Origin: a virus
Virus record (IMG/VR): IMGVR_UViG_3300022701_000095
Span: 1 to 20,344 of that record
DNA: 20,344 bases
Strand: one strand, 5' to 3'
In this document: positions 6,586 to 12,072 of the stretch, in pieces
Numbering within the stretch: position 1 is the first letter of the stretch
Layout of the letters: every line of letters begins with the position of its first letter
The notes under the pieces: generated by a model
The model's input: the letters and a program-made list of their open reading frames with translations, nothing else
Database searches by the model: none
Told to the model about the DNA's origin: nothing
Translations under genes and position numbers: made by a program

Positions 6586-6670
6586 TATAATGCGCGTCGT
6601 GATGACGCCCTAATCCCGCAGGGTAATGTTTTCGTCTGGAAATCGTTAGCCCTACAGATGGAGTTTTTAT
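6586..6670 (+). promoter_or_regulatory. Duplicated leader element, copy 1, before the major capsid gene
   Basis: The gap before the capsid gene contains four blocks that recur before the tail-tube gene. They are TATAAT (6586-6591), the hairpin core GTCGTGATGAC (6596-6606) inside a five-pair stem GCGTC/GACGC (6594-6608, loop GTGAT), AATCCCGCAG (6612-6621), and TGGAGTTTTTAT (6659-6670), which includes the GGAG ribosome-binding site. Spacing of the first three blocks equals that of copy 2. This copy has 37 bases between the third and fourth blocks, versus one base in copy 2, and these can fold further (AGGGTAA at 6620-6626 with TTA-G-CCCT at 6646-6653, bulged G). No -35 box stands at a normal distance from TATAAT. 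It is probably an RNA-level or promoter element for high expression; the function is unknown. Confidence 0.6.
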
Positions 6671-7835
6671 GCTTAATGCACTGAATGCGTATGATCCATT
6701 ATTTTATGTCAATAATGCTTTGATGTATCTTACAAATAATCTCGGTATGGCCGGTAGAGTGTACCGGGATACAGATTTGCAGCAGATTCCTCGCAGCGGA
6801 CGCACCGGCAAAATGCGCCGCCCCTCAAATTTTACCGCAACCGCAGTTGATACAAGCACCGGCGGCACAACACAAGACGTCGATACTGAGGAGGTCGATA
6901 TCACCTATGATCAATGGCATGAAGTCAAGTTCGCCGTGTATGAGGATGAGCTTGCCTTTGCTGGTCAGCGCTTCATTGAGGAGCACATCAACCCAGCGGC
7001 CTATGCTCTGGCTGATAAAATTGATCAATCATTAACGAACCTCTATAAGCACGTCCCTAGCTCGGTTATTGCGGGCGTTACGCCTGGTGTCGCCGATGTA
7101 ACAGCAGCTCGTCAAGCATTATTTAATCAGAAAGCCCCCAATGACGGTATGCGGGCATTAATGATGGGCGGAGCAATGGAAGCGGCGTTACTCAATCTGA
7201 CCGCGTTCAATCAGAATGATGGCGCTGGTGCTGTCGGTGTTAGCACTCAAACCACTGGCGACCTTGGTAGAAAATTCGGCTTTGATCTGTTTGCAAATCA
7301 AAATACTCCAAGTCACACTACTGGAGCTATGGCCGATACTGCTGGTGCGCTTAATGGCGCTGGTGCCAAAGGCGCGACAACTATTAGCATTGATGCGCTC
7401 ACTGATGCAGACACAATCGAGCCAGGTGATACATTTTCAATCGCTGGGAATGATCAAAAATACTCATATGTTGGCACCGCCACGCTCACCGTGTCTGGTA
7501 GTGCTGTAAGCAATATCGAAATTAGTCCGCCACTCCAGGCCGCTTACGCAGATAATGCGGTGGTTACGTTCGAAGCTGGGGCATCAGCTTCAACAAAAAC
7601 CGTGAATTTGGCATTTCACAAAGCGGCGTTTGGGTTAAAATTCGCAGAGTTACCGCAAATCGCTAATGAAATGGGCGCTCGCATTTCGATGCAGACTGAT
7701 CCAGTTACCGGCCTATCATTGCGCGCACGGATGTTTTATGAGGGCGACAATAATCGAATTAAGGTCGCGCTTGATGCGCTCTGGGCTGTAACGACACTAG
7801 ATCCGCGTCTGGCTGTACGTGTTCGCGAAAATTAA
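6669..7835 (+). CDS. Major capsid protein, P22 coat (gp5)-like
   Basis: The 388-residue protein forms the shell. It resembles the P22 coat-protein family: an opening with DPLFYVNNALMYL, a VDITYDQWHEVKFAVYEDEL strand region, a helix with NPAAYALADKIDQSL, and a closing part TVNLAFHKAAFGLKFAELP followed by GLSLRARMFYEGDNNRIKVALD. A Gly/Thr-rich beta-stranded segment at about residues 225-310, with GDTFSIAGNDQKYSY and ISPPLQAAYADNAVVTF, sits before the closing part. It corresponds to the inserted surface-domain region that this family often carries between its HK97-fold segments. GGAG at 6660-6663 lies five bases before the ATG. The gene follows the scaffold and the duplicated leader, consistent with very high expression. 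Confidence 0.9.
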   Translation: MLNALNAYDPLFYVNNALMYLTNNLGMAGRVYRDTDLQQIPRSGRTGKMRRPSNFTATAVDTSTGGTTQDVDTEEVDITYDQWHEVKFAVYEDELAFAGQRFIEEHINPAAYALADKIDQSLTNLYKHVPSSVIAGVTPGVADVTAARQALFNQKAPNDGMRALMMGGAMEAALLNLTAFNQNDGAGAVGVSTQTTGDLGRKFGFDLFANQNTPSHTTGAMADTAGALNGAGAKGATTISIDALTDADTIEPGDTFSIAGNDQKYSYVGTATLTVSGSAVSNIEISPPLQAAYADNAVVTFEAGASASTKTVNLAFHKAAFGLKFAELPQIANEMGARISMQTDPVTGLSLRARMFYEGDNNRIKVALDALWAVTTLDPRLAVRVREN

Positions 7836-7850
7836 TATAGGTTGAATTTC

Positions 7851-7871
7851 AACGCCGCACGATGCGGCGTT
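7851..7871 (+). promoter_or_regulatory. Nine-pair GC-rich hairpin between capsid gene and the next gene
   Basis: AACGCCGCA (7851-7859) and TGCGGCGTT (7863-7871) are perfect reverse complements around the three-base loop CGA. ATTTC before the stem can add pairs with GAAAT (7876-7880) across a bulge, which would place the GAGG ribosome-binding site of the next gene (7873-7876) inside the structure. A competing small hairpin GTTG/CAAC (7841-7853) shares the bases AAC. There is no T-run, so it is not a standard terminator. It more likely limits translation downstream of the abundant capsid message, protects its 3' end, or is a processing site. Confidence 0.55.
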
Positions 7872-7883
7872 AGAGGAAATATT

Positions 7884-8063
7884 ATGGCGACACTCGAAAC
7901 AGTAGAGATTCATAATTTCAAGGACAATGCCGACATGGACTCTAAATTCATCATCAATAAACGCGATTTCGATCCTGAGAAGCACGAAATTTTCGGCGAG
8001 CGTAAGGCTACTCAAAAACCAGCCGCATCAAAAACACGTTCGCAGTCGCAGGCGAAATCATAA
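7884..8063 (+). CDS. Small head-region protein, unknown function
   Basis: The 59-residue product starts at the ATG at 7884, which has a good ribosome-binding site, GAGGAAA (7873-7879). A longer frame from a TTG at 7842 would run through the hairpin and is unlikely. The motif FIINKRDFDPEKHEIFGE (residues 22-39) resembles the INxxDFDPxxHxxFGE motif of small proteins encoded after phage capsid genes. The last 20 residues are a basic, Ser/Gln/Lys-rich disordered tail. It is acidic-basic patterned, soluble and has no membrane segment. A structural or assembly role near the head is inferred from position only. Confidence 0.7.
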   Translation: MATLETVEIHNFKDNADMDSKFIINKRDFDPEKHEIFGERKATQKPAASKTRSQSQAKS

Positions 8064-8383
8064 TGCGATACTTGCTTGAGAATGTTTCCGCCAACGTGAC
8101 CGGCGAATGGATCGATTTTGGGTTGTCAGCACAGTTCCGTCATGCTTTTGCAAATGGTGCGAACACGTTGTTTGTTCATGCGGATGCGTGGGATGGCGCT
8201 AGCGTGGCTATTGAAATCCGCCGAAAACACGACAGCAAGGCATACCCAATTTCTAGCCTGACTGCATTAACTGAGGACGCAGCGGCACACCTCGGTTTTC
8301 TCGGCGCTCAGATTAGAGCCGTCGTAACAAGCGCAGGCGGCAGCACGGCAGGTCTAACAGTTGGGATAGAATCATACTCATGA
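8063..8383 (+). CDS. Probable virion protein of the head module, unknown function
   Basis: The 106-residue protein is almost entirely beta-prone, with short alternating strands (EWIDFGLSAQFRHAF, TLFVHADAWDGASVAIEIRR, QIRAVVTSAGGSTAGLTVGI), suggesting one beta-sandwich. Its ATG shares one base with the upstream TAA (TAATG at 8061-8065), and its TGA overlaps the next ATG, so it belongs to the same translation unit. Small beta proteins in this place are often capsid decoration or head-fibre components, but I cannot name the family. Confidence 0.7.
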   Translation: MRYLLENVSANVTGEWIDFGLSAQFRHAFANGANTLFVHADAWDGASVAIEIRRKHDSKAYPISSLTALTEDAAAHLGFLGAQIRAVVTSAGGSTAGLTVGIESYS

Positions 8384-9288
8384 CTGACGCGAAAACATTA
8401 AATCATCTCAGCCTAGGTGCGCCTGATATTAGAACAACAACAGGGATTGTTGATGTGCTGCGCTATTGCCTAGTAACGAACCCACATCCAGACGGTGCAT
8501 GGACTGAGCCGTTTACTCCTGCGCCAGATGTCACAGTTTTTAAAAATCACATCAGCGGCGGTGAGTTCTGCATCAACGTGAACAATGGTGGTGGAGGGGG
8601 CGCGTATGCCGAAATAACGTGCTATAGGAACATGACAGCCATAGAGGTAGGGACAGATCAGTTCGGCCCAGCGCCGGGATACATGAACGGACGAGATACA
8701 AACGCCGTAACAGACCCTGGTGAATGGTTTTGTTACTATAATCAGAAATTTTTTATTTTAGTGTGTCATTACGGAACAGGTACAGCAAATAATTATGACC
8801 AATCCTTTTTGGCTTTTGGCCCAGGTATAAAACCGTTATCATCGAACGACGTTAATAACTGCTTTATTCTGGTAAATGATGCCTCGTCCGGATTTAGCTA
8901 TACTTATGATATGTGGCGAAACGCCTATGCTAATTCTGGGGCATGGGTTTCTAATTTAGACGGAACTGTAAATAACCCAGGCCTATACTTAAACTACTAC
9001 ACTGGTGGAACGTGGCCTTACGGTATATATGACAGCCCTATTCATGGGACTGTGGATCAGACCGCTGTGAGTAATATTGTTCTGAAAGACGCAAACACGA
9101 CTGGGGACTACCGCGCCTTATTCCCAGGAGTTTTAATTTGTATGACGCCACCAGGTGGGCATGTGTTTGCTGAGCAGGAGGTGTTGGTAGACTCCGGGGA
9201 TCTGTCGGGTGCAGATGAAACACGAGCATTCTTTGCGTACAACAGCGGGCAACTACTGATAAGCACCCATGAGGGGCTTTGGAGTTAG
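8380..9288 (+). CDS. Unrecognised 302-residue protein between capsid and connector genes
   Basis: I recognise no family. The protein has no signal peptide, membrane helix or obvious enzyme motif. It is rich in Gly, Asn, Tyr and Trp, with many short strands and a GGGGG run near residue 70, and looks like a globular beta protein (FFILVCHYGTG, FLAFGPGIK, LYLNYYTGGTWPYGIYDSP). The start overlaps the upstream stop (ATGA at 8380-8383). Codon use differs from the neighbours: by eye about half its glycines are GGA or GGG, against about a fifth in the capsid gene, and AGA/AGG arginine codons occur. That suggests later acquisition. A decorating, head-fibre or cargo virion protein is the simplest guess from location. 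Confidence 0.65.
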   Translation: MTDAKTLNHLSLGAPDIRTTTGIVDVLRYCLVTNPHPDGAWTEPFTPAPDVTVFKNHISGGEFCINVNNGGGGGAYAEITCYRNMTAIEVGTDQFGPAPGYMNGRDTNAVTDPGEWFCYYNQKFFILVCHYGTGTANNYDQSFLAFGPGIKPLSSNDVNNCFILVNDASSGFSYTYDMWRNAYANSGAWVSNLDGTVNNPGLYLNYYTGGTWPYGIYDSPIHGTVDQTAVSNIVLKDANTTGDYRALFPGVLICMTPPGGHVFAEQEVLVDSGDLSGADETRAFFAYNSGQLLISTHEGLWS

Positions 9289-9291
9289 GTT

Positions 9292-9639
9292 ATGGGGGCA
9301 TCTAATGTACGCATAATTAAGCAAACCGCCGTATTTACTATACGAAATAATATCCCTCCAGGAAGTATTTCTGTATCCGTAGGGGATGGTGGAAATGCCT
9401 TAATAGATCTGTATATGAATATGTCAGCACCAAAAAAAGTAAACTCCATGTATGGATCAAATGTGGTTTTTGATGGTATACCCACAAATACCAACTATTG
9501 GTTGTATGCGTATAGGCAAGGTGAGTCTGTGTTTTGTTCAGGGCCATTGGCTGCGGGTGATTCGGTTAGTATTGATTTTGCAAGTGGTGGCGGCGGTGGT
9601 GGTGACTCAACCGCTTTATTGCCGGTGACAGTGCTATGA
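9292..9639 (+). CDS. Unrecognised 115-residue protein with glycine-rich tail
   Basis: The product is a small beta-rich protein (RIIKQTAVFTIRNN, SISVSVGDGGNALIDLYMN, NYWLYAYRQGESVFCSG). Its composition resembles a carbohydrate-binding or fibronectin-like sandwich, ending in a flexible stretch SGGGGGGDS and a hydrophobic tip. GGAG at 9281-9284 is a good ribosome-binding site. It follows the 302-residue gene by three bases, shares its raised GGA/GGG use, and its TGA overlaps the gp36-like start. The two genes probably form one acquired unit. Membrane segments and enzyme motifs are absent. Confidence 0.65.
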   Translation: MGASNVRIIKQTAVFTIRNNIPPGSISVSVGDGGNALIDLYMNMSAPKKVNSMYGSNVVFDGIPTNTNYWLYAYRQGESVFCSGPLAAGDSVSIDFASGGGGGGDSTALLPVTVL

Positions 9640-10151
9640 CTGATATTACTCTAATTACTCCGATAGATATGATTGATCAATTCGGCGACGATGAGATTGC
9701 GCAGCGAGCAATTAGAGATGATCATCATGAGGTGTCTGGTGATGATTTGCGGGTCACGATTAATGATGGTGATCGTACTGGCTGGACTCAAGATCTACGA
9801 AATCAGGCTGATTTTGCGCTCGATAATTTGCAGTCTGCTTGCGATCAAAGTAATGCGATAGCTAGCGGTTATATTCGTGCCGGTTATCCCGTTATTGATA
9901 CCACTGCCCCCACTAAAACCCCACTTGATGCAAAACGGTACACGCTCGATTTATGCCGATTCATTCTGTATGACGACAATTACCCTGAGTATGTTTATAC
10001 GGCTAACGTTGCCGCGCTGGCATGGTTTCGCGATGTTGCTAGTGGGAAAATAGCGCTAGATTTGGGTATTGCGAATATACAAAAACCGGGCGGGTTGGTC
10101 ATGACGAACTTGCAGTATCCGCTGATGAATAATGATCAGGCGGTGCATTGA
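9636..10151 (+). CDS. Head-tail connector protein, Mu gp36-like (DUF1320)
   Basis: The 171-residue protein fits the DUF1320 / Mu gp36 family. It has an N-terminal ITPIDMIDQFGDDEIAQRA (the family opens with a D-x3-x-FG-x-E helix), a helix of the DNQADFALDNLQSACDQSNAIASGYIRAGYP type leading to the conserved GY-x-x-GYP turn, and a C-terminal helical block ending in WFRDVASGKIALDLG, matching the family's ia-x-Gk-x-x-Lg motif. These proteins form the ring joining the filled head to the tail. ATGA overlap with the gene before and TGATG overlap with the gene after put it in a tightly coupled connector operon. Confidence 0.8.
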   Translation: MTDITLITPIDMIDQFGDDEIAQRAIRDDHHEVSGDDLRVTINDGDRTGWTQDLRNQADFALDNLQSACDQSNAIASGYIRAGYPVIDTTAPTKTPLDAKRYTLDLCRFILYDDNYPEYVYTANVAALAWFRDVASGKIALDLGIANIQKPGGLVMTNLQYPLMNNDQAVH

Positions 10152-10561
10152 TGGGCGTCAAAATAACCAACCCCGGCGTGATCAAAAAATACGCCAAAGC
10201 CGCACGACGTATTAAAGATGTTCGTCAACTGAATCGCGATATTGCAATAAAACTACATCAAAACGTCATTGTTCGGTTTGTGAAAGAGCGTGATCCTGAT
10301 GGGCAAAGCTGGAAACCGTCAAAGCGAGCGCAACGCGAAGGCGGTCAAACACTAACGGATACCGGACGGTTGCGGGCCAGCATCCGGTTTGGGTTTGGTC
10401 GGAATTATGCCGAGGTATTCACCAACACGCTAGAGTATGCTGCTGTGCATAATGAAGGTGCGGCGCGTATGCCAAAACGTCAATACATTGGTTATGGCTC
10501 AGACGAGCGTAACGCGGTCAATGATGCGGCCAATCAATTTATTAAAAAGGCGTTTGGTTGA
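10151..10561 (+). CDS. Virion morphogenesis / tail completion protein, Mu gpG-like
   Basis: The 136-residue protein matches the phage virion morphogenesis family (Mu gpG). It shows FVKERDPDGQSWKPSKRA (family pattern E-x-PDG-x-W-xP), LTDTGRLRASIRFGF (L-x-x-TG-x-LR-x-SI), YAAVHNEGAARMPKRQYIG (YA-x-H-x-G, then P-x-RxyiG) and a C-terminal helix. Such proteins act at the head-tail interface during tail completion. I use the ATG at 10151, whose A is the last base of the upstream TGA; a TTG three bases earlier is less likely. Confidence 0.85.
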   Translation: MGVKITNPGVIKKYAKAARRIKDVRQLNRDIAIKLHQNVIVRFVKERDPDGQSWKPSKRAQREGGQTLTDTGRLRASIRFGFGRNYAEVFTNTLEYAAVHNEGAARMPKRQYIGYGSDERNAVNDAANQFIKKAFG

Positions 10562-11019
10562 TGCTGGTGCTCAATGACTACTTCGAGCCAGAGCAATACA
10601 TCATTGAGCAGTTGCAGACACTCAAGCCTGATCATTTCAAGCATGTTCAGTCAGCACTGAATGTCGAGCAGGTCTTAGAGTATGGCGGCAAAGCACCGGC
10701 GGCATTTTTGATATTTTCGCAGCATCAAATTGTGAACAGCAAGCGGCATGTCATGCAAGAGCAACAAATCTGGATGGTGGCGGTGTTGGCACGAAATCGA
10801 GCTGATACGGAATACAATACACATGTACGCCGTGACGCTGGGCCGCTGCTGTATCATGTAGATAAAGCGCTGCACGGTTTCGCATTTGCAAATGAAGCCG
10901 GGCAGGCATCAGCACTGAAAGCAACGACACCGCCTGAAGCATTCGAGTATTTGCCGGGCACTGGTGTATTTACGCGAGCGTTTAGTCTGGAGTTCGTCAA
11001 CTCATCATCTAATCGCTAA
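10561..11019 (+). CDS. Tail terminator-like protein, Mu gp37-like family
   Basis: The 152-residue protein occupies the usual place of the tail terminator, between the gpG-like gene and the tail tube gene. It resembles the Mu gp37 / DUF1834 group: YIIEQLQTLKPDHFKHVQSALNVEQV at the start, a core QQIWMVAVLARNRADTEYNTHVRRDAGPLLYHVDKAL, and a closing strand GVFTRAFSLEFVN. The fold expected is a small alpha/beta ring protein that caps the finished tail tube. The ATG at 10561 overlaps the upstream TGA by one base; the TTG at 10558 is an unlikely start. Confidence 0.72.
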   Translation: MLVLNDYFEPEQYIIEQLQTLKPDHFKHVQSALNVEQVLEYGGKAPAAFLIFSQHQIVNSKRHVMQEQQIWMVAVLARNRADTEYNTHVRRDAGPLLYHVDKALHGFAFANEAGQASALKATTPPEAFEYLPGTGVFTRAFSLEFVNSSSNR

Positions 11020-11020
11020 A

Positions 11021-11069
11021 TATTATTACTGTCGTGATGACAGTAGAATCCCGTAGCTGGAGTTTTTAT
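11021..11069 (+). promoter_or_regulatory. Duplicated leader element, copy 2, before the tail tube gene
   Basis: This is the second copy of the element found before the capsid gene. Its blocks are TATTAT (11021-11026), the hairpin core GTCGTGATGAC (11031-11041) in a perfect six-pair stem ACTGTC/GACAGT (11028-11044, loop GTGAT), AATCCCGTAG (11047-11056) and TGGAGTTTTTAT (11058-11069), which includes the GGAG ribosome-binding site at 11059-11062. The distances between the first three blocks equal those in copy 1. The outer stem pairs differ from copy 1 on both arms, so pairing is preserved while sequence is not. No -35 box is placed properly before TATTAT. It begins one base after the gp37-like stop codon. 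Confidence 0.6.
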
Positions 11070-11070
11070 T

Positions 11071-12072
11071 ATGACTATTACTGCGTTAGATGTTGGTAGC
11101 ACCGTCGAGATTGGGTCTGGTGTAGCGTATTTTGACCCATGGGATGTGAATAATAATCGATCTGGCGAAATCGATATGGGTGAGCCGGAAGAAATCAACC
11201 TCACAATCGAGCAAGGCGACAAAACCGAGCGTCGCTCTCGCCGATCTGTAGGCCGTCCGGTGATTTTCACCCAAACGACGCAGGGATCAAAGTCGATTAA
11301 ATTGACATCGTTATCGGTTACTGCTGAGCTGAAAAAGCTATTTTTATCCGCTGAAAAAGTCACGGTGACACAAACCGCTAGTGCGGTCACGGATGAAATC
11401 ATCTGGACTGATAGCATTGAGGCGAATCGCCATTACCAGTTAGGTCAAACCACATCTAATCCGGTTGGTGTAATCGGCGGCACGACTGTAAGTATTATGT
11501 CATTCCCGAGCGGGATTGCGGCGTGGGCAGCAGACACAGCATATGCAGTTGGTGATGCGGTAGAGAAAGTCACGGATGATAACACGGTATGGGCGGTCGT
11601 TGATGCAGGCACTACCGATGCGAGCGAGCCAGCATGGCCAACAGAGGCGTTAGGTGATACGGTGGTAAATGGCACAGTTACATTTAAGCGTGTTTCTGAT
11701 GCGCAAGAAACATATGTCCTCGGTACTGACTATGAGTTAGAAACCAACACGGATGAGGGTTTGCGTATTAAATGGATATCACCTGACACGTTCCCTCACG
11801 CGATTTGGGCTAATTACACGCCGACCGCCAATACTCGCACACGCCTGCAAACTGGATCTGGCACTAGCCTAGTCGGTACGTTTCGATTTGTCGAAGACTC
11901 GGAAACACCGGTTTTTGGCAAAAACTGGGTAGCGCACAAGGTTGAGCTGACCCCTGACGGCGACCTTGGGTTAGTTACGGATGAGTCAACACTTAAGCAA
12001 GTAAGCTTTACGATGAATATTCAAACTGTTGCTGGTATTCCTGACCTGATGGTTGATGGGAAGGCGGTCTGA
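11071..12072 (+). CDS. Major tail tube protein with an inserted beta module
   Basis: The 333-residue protein has the place and look of a tail tube protein: DVGSTVEIGSGVAYFDP at the start, a IDMGEPEEINLTIEQGDKTERRSRRSVGRPV segment, and the closing HKVELTPDGDLGLVTDESTLKQVSFTMNIQ, typical of tube subunits. Residues 151-208 form a separate small module: AW at 151-152, TAYAVGDAV, then AGTTDASEPAWP, and NGTVTFKRV at 200-208. The same type of module occurs in the tail-tip protein at 16483-19926, so it is likely a surface-exposed insertion rather than part of the tube core. GGAG eight bases before the ATG and the duplicated leader fit high expression. The TGA overlaps the next gene's ATG by one base. 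Confidence 0.8.
   Translation: MTITALDVGSTVEIGSGVAYFDPWDVNNNRSGEIDMGEPEEINLTIEQGDKTERRSRRSVGRPVIFTQTTQGSKSIKLTSLSVTAELKKLFLSAEKVTVTQTASAVTDEIIWTDSIEANRHYQLGQTTSNPVGVIGGTTVSIMSFPSGIAAWAADTAYAVGDAVEKVTDDNTVWAVVDAGTTDASEPAWPTEALGDTVVNGTVTFKRVSDAQETYVLGTDYELETNTDEGLRIKWISPDTFPHAIWANYTPTANTRTRLQTGSGTSLVGTFRFVEDSETPVFGKNWVAHKVELTPDGDLGLVTDESTLKQVSFTMNIQTVAGIPDLMVDGKAV

Follow-up and report, generated by a model that had tools for sequence, protein, structure and literature searches.

Small RNA structures close to gene starts are known from several phage systems. The leader of T7 gene 10 carries a hairpin upstream of the Shine-Dalgarno segment and raises translation of the major capsid protein, the coat protein operators of MS2 and PP7 are repressor sites on the replicase gene, and the boxB/nut element of phage lambda is an antitermination site downstream of promoters, with a pentaloop of GNRA-like fold. 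In cluster K mycobacteriophages, start-associated sequences (SAS) with the consensus GGGATAGGAGCCC and at most two deviations stand immediately before the start codon, and extended start-associated sequences (ESAS) consist of imperfect 17-bp inverted repeats with a 4–13 bp spacer (PMC3203893). We analysed a viral stretch of 20,344 nucleotides (IMGVR_UViG_3300022701_000095, positions 1 to 20,344; hereafter the window), in which the genes for the major capsid protein and the major tail (tube) protein are preceded by two copies of one leader element, a probable translation-initiation element. SAS and ESAS are its nearest parallel, as the first-pass annotation of the window had proposed. Like the element, they are repeated shortly before the starts of many phage genes that belong to various families; the ESAS likewise add an inverted repeat upstream, and function is unproven there as here. 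SAS and ESAS are unrelated to the element in sequence and were described within one phage cluster, whereas the element is a GNRA hairpin with an internal mismatch; it is found in unrelated phages and in more than one host class, for the most part in front of virion genes. The Shine-Dalgarno segment of the copies inspected reads (A)GAUGGAG and not GGGATAGGAGCCC, and the stem arms of about 7–8 nucleotides with a loop of 4–5 nucleotides do not correspond to ESAS.

In the window, GTCGTGATGAC was located at 6596–6606 (copy 1) and 11031–11041 (copy 2), the AATCCCGYAG block at 6612–6621 and 11047–11056, and TGGAGTTTTTAT at 6659–6670 and 11058–11069. The two central blocks combined occur twice in the window and not once in 100 dinucleotide shuffles. 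Coordinates, order and the gaps of 4 and 5 bases agree with the first-pass annotation, which had noted gaps of equal length and merely different sequence. The equal length holds; the second statement falls short, since the gaps are the strands of a pairing stem. In copy 1 the outer strands GCGC and GCCC form the pairs 6595:6607, 6594:6608 and 6592:6610 with a C·C mismatch at 6593·6609, and in copy 2 the strands UACU and AGUA pair from 11030:11042 to 11027:11045 with no mismatch. The gap lengths are equal because the gaps are helix strands, and since these strands differ yet pair in both copies, a compensatory change is already present within the window. TATWAT had been counted as a further shared block. 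It stands 4 bases upstream of both window copies, is absent from the other copies and thus lies outside the conserved unit. The following features were assigned:

6592–6610, + strand: hairpin of copy 1, GCGC-GUC (GUGAU) GAC-GCCC (sequence, fold and covariance model, 45–47 bits)
6599–6603, + strand: loop of copy 1, GNRA(U)-type (sequence and fold)
6612–6618, + strand: conserved single-stranded AAUCCCG of copy 1, kept as A(A/U)UCCC in most copies
6620–6655 (about), + strand: inserted second hairpin of copy 1, variable among copies (fold; G001d, L004, L051 and a Synechococcus phage have comparable insertions at this position)
6656–6663, + strand: Shine-Dalgarno segment AGAUGGAG of copy 1 (commonest forms over 58 copies: AGATGGAG, 17, and TGATGGAG, 8)
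6669–7835, + strand: gene for the major capsid protein, led by copy 1 (match to phrog_283, a major head protein, E 3.9e-63)
11026–11046, + strand: hairpin of copy 2, UUACU-GUC (GUGAU) GAC-AGUAG, fully paired with G·U at the base (sequence, fold and model, 41–47 bits)
11047–11053, + strand: conserved segment AAUCCCG of copy 2, likewise kept as A(A/U)UCCC in most copies
11055–11062, + strand: Shine-Dalgarno segment AGCUGGAG of copy 2 (sequence)
11071–12072, + strand: gene for the major tail (tube) protein, led by copy 2 (match to phrog_807, a major tail protein that has an Ig-like domain, E 1.7e-18)

In copy 2, 40 nucleotides separate the G of GUC from the start codon, which is the modal spacing among the other copies. 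In accordance with the earlier reading, a covariance-model search of the window gave no copy before any gene besides the capsid and tail tube genes. A different strong hairpin, AACGCCGC-ACGAU-GCGGCGUU, was observed at about 7861–7880, directly before the Shine-Dalgarno segment of the small gene that follows the capsid gene and starts at about 7884; it is placed similarly, with a loop that is not GNRA.

Further copies were searched in viral contigs and in a genomes collection. The exact pattern GTCGTGATGAC-N3-7-AATCCCG matched 8 viral-contig stretches; in six of them the outer stem pairs and a start codon is close by, and five of these six show a clear Shine-Dalgarno segment. The 76 matches in the genomes collection were nearly all chance; a Methylobacter contig gave the one clear copy, in front of a capsid gene of N4gp56 type. 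A covariance-model search had been suggested together with the two original copies, and models were built from 5 (R1), 15 (R2) and 31 copies (R3). R1 revealed extra copies in the same contigs that are invisible to the exact pattern: in L006 before the sheath gene, where the tail tube gene of the same contig also has a copy, and in L009 before the gene that follows the scaffold gene. R2 and R3 extended the set further. One phage, G001, has four copies and several others have two each. Dozens of copies ahead of virion genes in other phages thus support the proposal that the genes for abundant virion proteins share an expression element.

A later pattern, GTCGTGATGAC-N3-7-ATTCCC, fixes only the loop, three closing pairs and AUUCCC, the common form of the conserved segment, and leaves the outer stem free. 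It matched 57 viral-contig stretches, some from near-duplicate contigs, compared to 2 for a loop-reversed control. The first outer pair forms in 55 of the 57, which is an unbiased check on the stem. A Shine-Dalgarno segment and a start codon follow in 47, a few of which may be chance, for example before a cytochrome-like gene in three near-identical contigs. In three alignments, which were fitted to the model and hence lean towards it, standard pairs make up 89–91% and two-sided changes number 28, 55 and 58, compared to 10.2, 18.6 and 16.5 in shuffles. Six of the seven stem pairs covary, and the signal is lost when the pairing partners are slid. In a relaxed scan, GNRAU hairpins stand before 22 of 437 Shine-Dalgarno-bearing starts in the motif phages versus 2 of 352 in cultured controls, with 0–2 for five-base control loops. 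The copies are not chance. Weak genome-scan matches inside or antisense to coding sequence were discounted, as were BLAST matches in Haemophilus phage HP2 and Burkholderia phage BgManors32, which lie inside coding sequence.

In the consensus, A(A/U)UCCC comes after a hairpin and is separated by a spacer, usually of 6 nucleotides, from the (A)GAUGGAG Shine-Dalgarno segment, beyond which lies the start codon. The hairpin has the core YGUC-GUGAU-GACR and outer pairs that vary in sequence yet pair. Stem pair 3 is always G-C, the closing pairs above it join a 5' pyrimidine to a 3' purine with very few exceptions, and most copies have a single mismatch, often C·C, 5–6 bp below the loop. The loop alternates between GUGAU, GUGA, GAGAU, GCGAU and GCGA in most copies and is therefore most simply read as a GNRA fold that may carry one additional U. 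The hairpin spans roughly 45 to 24 nucleotides upstream of the start codon; the G of GUC lies 37–41 nucleotides from it in 28 of 38 non-redundant cases, and the CCC-to-GGA distance is mostly 5–7 nucleotides. Four copies (win1, G001d, L004 and L051) have an extra hairpin between A(A/U)UCCC and the Shine-Dalgarno segment, as seen for copy 1. We also observed two variants. Hairpins of the form NNGUC-GGGA-GACNN, with the same stem and the ribosome site GGGAG within the loop, stand a few nucleotides before several starts (portal, scaffold and a large virion gene) in L174 and L194 (both from the G163 phage contig) and in L196 (G007 contig). A tandem double leader precedes the scaffold gene in L188 (7270–7302 and 7163–7196), with equivalents in L185 and L186; the first copy is followed by a two-codon frame, ATG TTT TAA or, in the third phage, TTG TTT TAA.

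The genes served belong to mutually unrelated virion families: major head proteins (phrog_283, 334, 10, 70 and 267), portals (phrog_156 and 332), tail proteins (phrog_807, 185 and 1407) and tail fibres, sheaths (phrog_165 and 205) and a scaffold (phrog_3927). Such diversity suggests that the leader has spread horizontally without being tied to a particular gene. The leader was also observed in the small methanotroph contigs L176 (8216–11673) and L177 (1106–4548), before Toprim_3-bearing replication proteins of about 1135 amino acids; these contigs are possibly satellites or plasmid-like elements that share the leader signal.

Among hosts, real copies were found in 6 of 311 genomes of the Methylobacter order, all six with pmoA. 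One of these copies is a spacer of a clustered regularly interspaced short palindromic repeats (CRISPR) array. The spacer, CGCGTCGTGATGACGCCCTATTCCCTTGATGG, matches the window at 6593–6617 in 24 of 25 positions and L009 in 26 of 27; it is spacer 17, counted from 0, of an array with 53 repeats in a pmoA-bearing methanotroph (L173; G053 genome, C1 438000–453000). Copies were found in 1 of 300 genomes of a Burkholderiales sample and in about 1 of 368 of a class sample; a phylum sample of 349 genomes gave no copy besides the seed. A Sinorhizobium medicae plasmid has a near-perfect copy before a large tailspike-like protein gene. This lone gene (L271, 8990–11371) adjoins glycosyltransferases, and no other phage gene was recognised nearby. 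The cultured Synechococcus phage Yong-M4-211 shows a GUC-GAGAU-GAC hairpin with C·C mismatch, UUUCCC, an inserted hairpin and AAGGA before a P22-type coat gene. Its model score is modest (20.9 bits, E 0.005), and it probably carries the element, a case that rests on position and anatomy. The methanotroph genomes and the spacer had first suggested a methanotroph-specific factor; this idea was dropped because of the copies in the Burkholderiales genome, the Sinorhizobium plasmid and, by position, the Synechococcus phage.

The motif had not been recognised in the first-pass annotation, and Rfam 15 gave no match at gathering score in the window or in five copy-bearing loci; permissive scans of both window copies gave sub-threshold matches to small nucleolar RNAs only. 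No paper printing the core as a phage motif was found in the literature searched, subscription papers not being covered. Similar to the element, the T7 gene 10 leader has a hairpin upstream of the Shine-Dalgarno segment of the major capsid gene, but it is a single locus of other sequence and its hairpin arises from RNase III processing. The MS2 and PP7 operators are small hairpins with a specific loop and an imperfect stem beside a start site; they differ in loop and position, and no coat-type RNA binder was identified for the element. The pentaloop of lambda boxB shares the GNRA-like fold but is of GNRNA type, with no fixed place relative to start codons. Mimicry of 16S ribosomal RNA helices 36/37 (S2 region), of the type known from ribosomal-protein leaders, was not supported: R3, run without filters on two methanotroph 16S loci, gave a best match of E 0.71 in flanking sequence and nothing convincing within the 16S gene. 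Loop pairing with the 16S 3' end (GUGAU with AUCAC) was rejected, since the loop varies as GNRA (GAGAU, GCGAU, GUGA). The element thus constitutes a new RNA family within a familiar category, the phage 5' leader elements; what sets it apart is its occurrence in unrelated phages and in several classes of host.

A promoter, a translational enhancer or operator and an RNA-stability structure had been offered as mechanisms. An RNA element at translation initiation fits best, whereas a promoter does not hold as a common property. A dyad read as DNA by polymerase or a regulator would be in line with TATWAT upstream of both window copies, and the dyad is also a DNA-binding shape. The alternation of tetraloop and pentaloop GNRA forms, the covarying stem with internal mismatches, the coding-strand orientation and a distance that is constant to the start codon and not to any −10 box make this highly improbable; the best sigma-70 −35/−10 hexamer pairs beat shuffles in only 2 of 34 copies, at varying distances. 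In G001 (contig loci L179–L181) all four copies lie below the promoter-like repeat TTGCAW-N16-TACAAT. One further such repeat occurs there without the leader hairpin, so that promoter and leader are separable. This arrangement would place three of the four G001 copies near the 5' end of the messenger RNA (mRNA), as expected if the hairpin guarded virion mRNAs from decay or were itself processed, for which the ompA and T7 gene 10 leaders are examples. Such a stabiliser or processing signal needs neither the loop sequence nor UCCC nor the tight start-codon spacing, and with promoter association confined to the said 2 of 34 copies we consider it quite unlikely.

A small probability is also given to a switch, controlled by the upstream hairpin, that would sequester the Shine-Dalgarno segment through pairing of its GGA with the UCC of A(A/U)UCCC. 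The nearly fixed CCC-to-GGA distance fits a small hairpin loop and strong pairing is predicted in two copies, but it comprises 3 base pairs only, the flanking bases do not covary and the predicted pairing probability is below 0.3 in most copies, so UCC:GGA pairing was rejected as a general mechanism. Translational repression by an RNA-binding protein is known from MS2 coat protein and T4 RegA. A phage or host protein that binds the hairpin beside the Shine-Dalgarno segment and represses or times virion gene translation would explain the specific loop, the purine/pyrimidine pattern of the stem, the near-loop mismatch and the conserved UCCC, all typical of a protein site. Such an operator is nevertheless unlikely, as the site is common to unrelated phages of unrelated hosts and no protein family common to the motif-bearing phages was found among their partial contigs.

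From the structure and placement established by comparison we infer, as a moderately probable reading, that both window copies belong to one widespread cis-acting translation-initiation element in the 5' leaders of virion genes. Translation initiation is indicated by the fixed start-codon distance, the coding-strand placement beside the Shine-Dalgarno segment and the abundant-protein genes. Given the unrelated phages, the distant hosts and the lack of a detected shared protein, a host component that is conserved is a likelier partner than a regulator of phage origin. The hairpin position of about −45 to −24 falls at the upstream edge of the 30S footprint, where the hairpin may help the ribosome to load. 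Contact could be made with platform proteins such as S1 or S2 or with ribosomal RNA, the 30S platform being most likely; the targets would be mRNAs that need heavy translation late in infection, and the leader may spread by horizontal transfer, with or between gene modules. Several observations weigh against this translation-initiation reading. A few copies stand before replication genes (Toprim_3 primase-like genes in G216 and G237, a helicase gene in G387), so its use extends beyond virion genes. The element is also dispensable, being absent from about 17 cultured phages whose virion proteins are related. A short form has no A(A/U)UCCC, with the hairpin abutting the Shine-Dalgarno segment directly. 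A shared phage factor could lie outside the fragmentary contigs, and a translational repressor site or a stabiliser of the mRNA could be placed in the same way. Missing copies elsewhere, or missing conservation in close relatives, had been named at the outset as evidence against a shared element: further copies were found and the outcome favours the element, although it is absent from Pan1, R5C and SSP002, which by capsid protein are the closest annotated relatives. A search of the viral contigs with the window capsid protein gave no relatives.

Phages need hundreds of capsid and tail protein copies in a short time, and the way in which late genes are given priority in translation is, to our knowledge, understood in a handful of model phages only. 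That phages with unrelated virion genes and widely separated hosts share one RNA element suggests that they have solved this problem in the same way. Tentatively, the leader might be a phage-wide, host-independent initiation RNA. It would bind a conserved site of the 30S platform and raise the loading of virion mRNAs in hosts that range from cyanobacteria to proteobacteria, as a bacterial equivalent of the leaders by which viruses recruit ribosomes. The leader marks virion genes in unannotated phage contigs and offers a ready expression part. With a host CRISPR spacer matching it, one spacer could in principle act against several phages.

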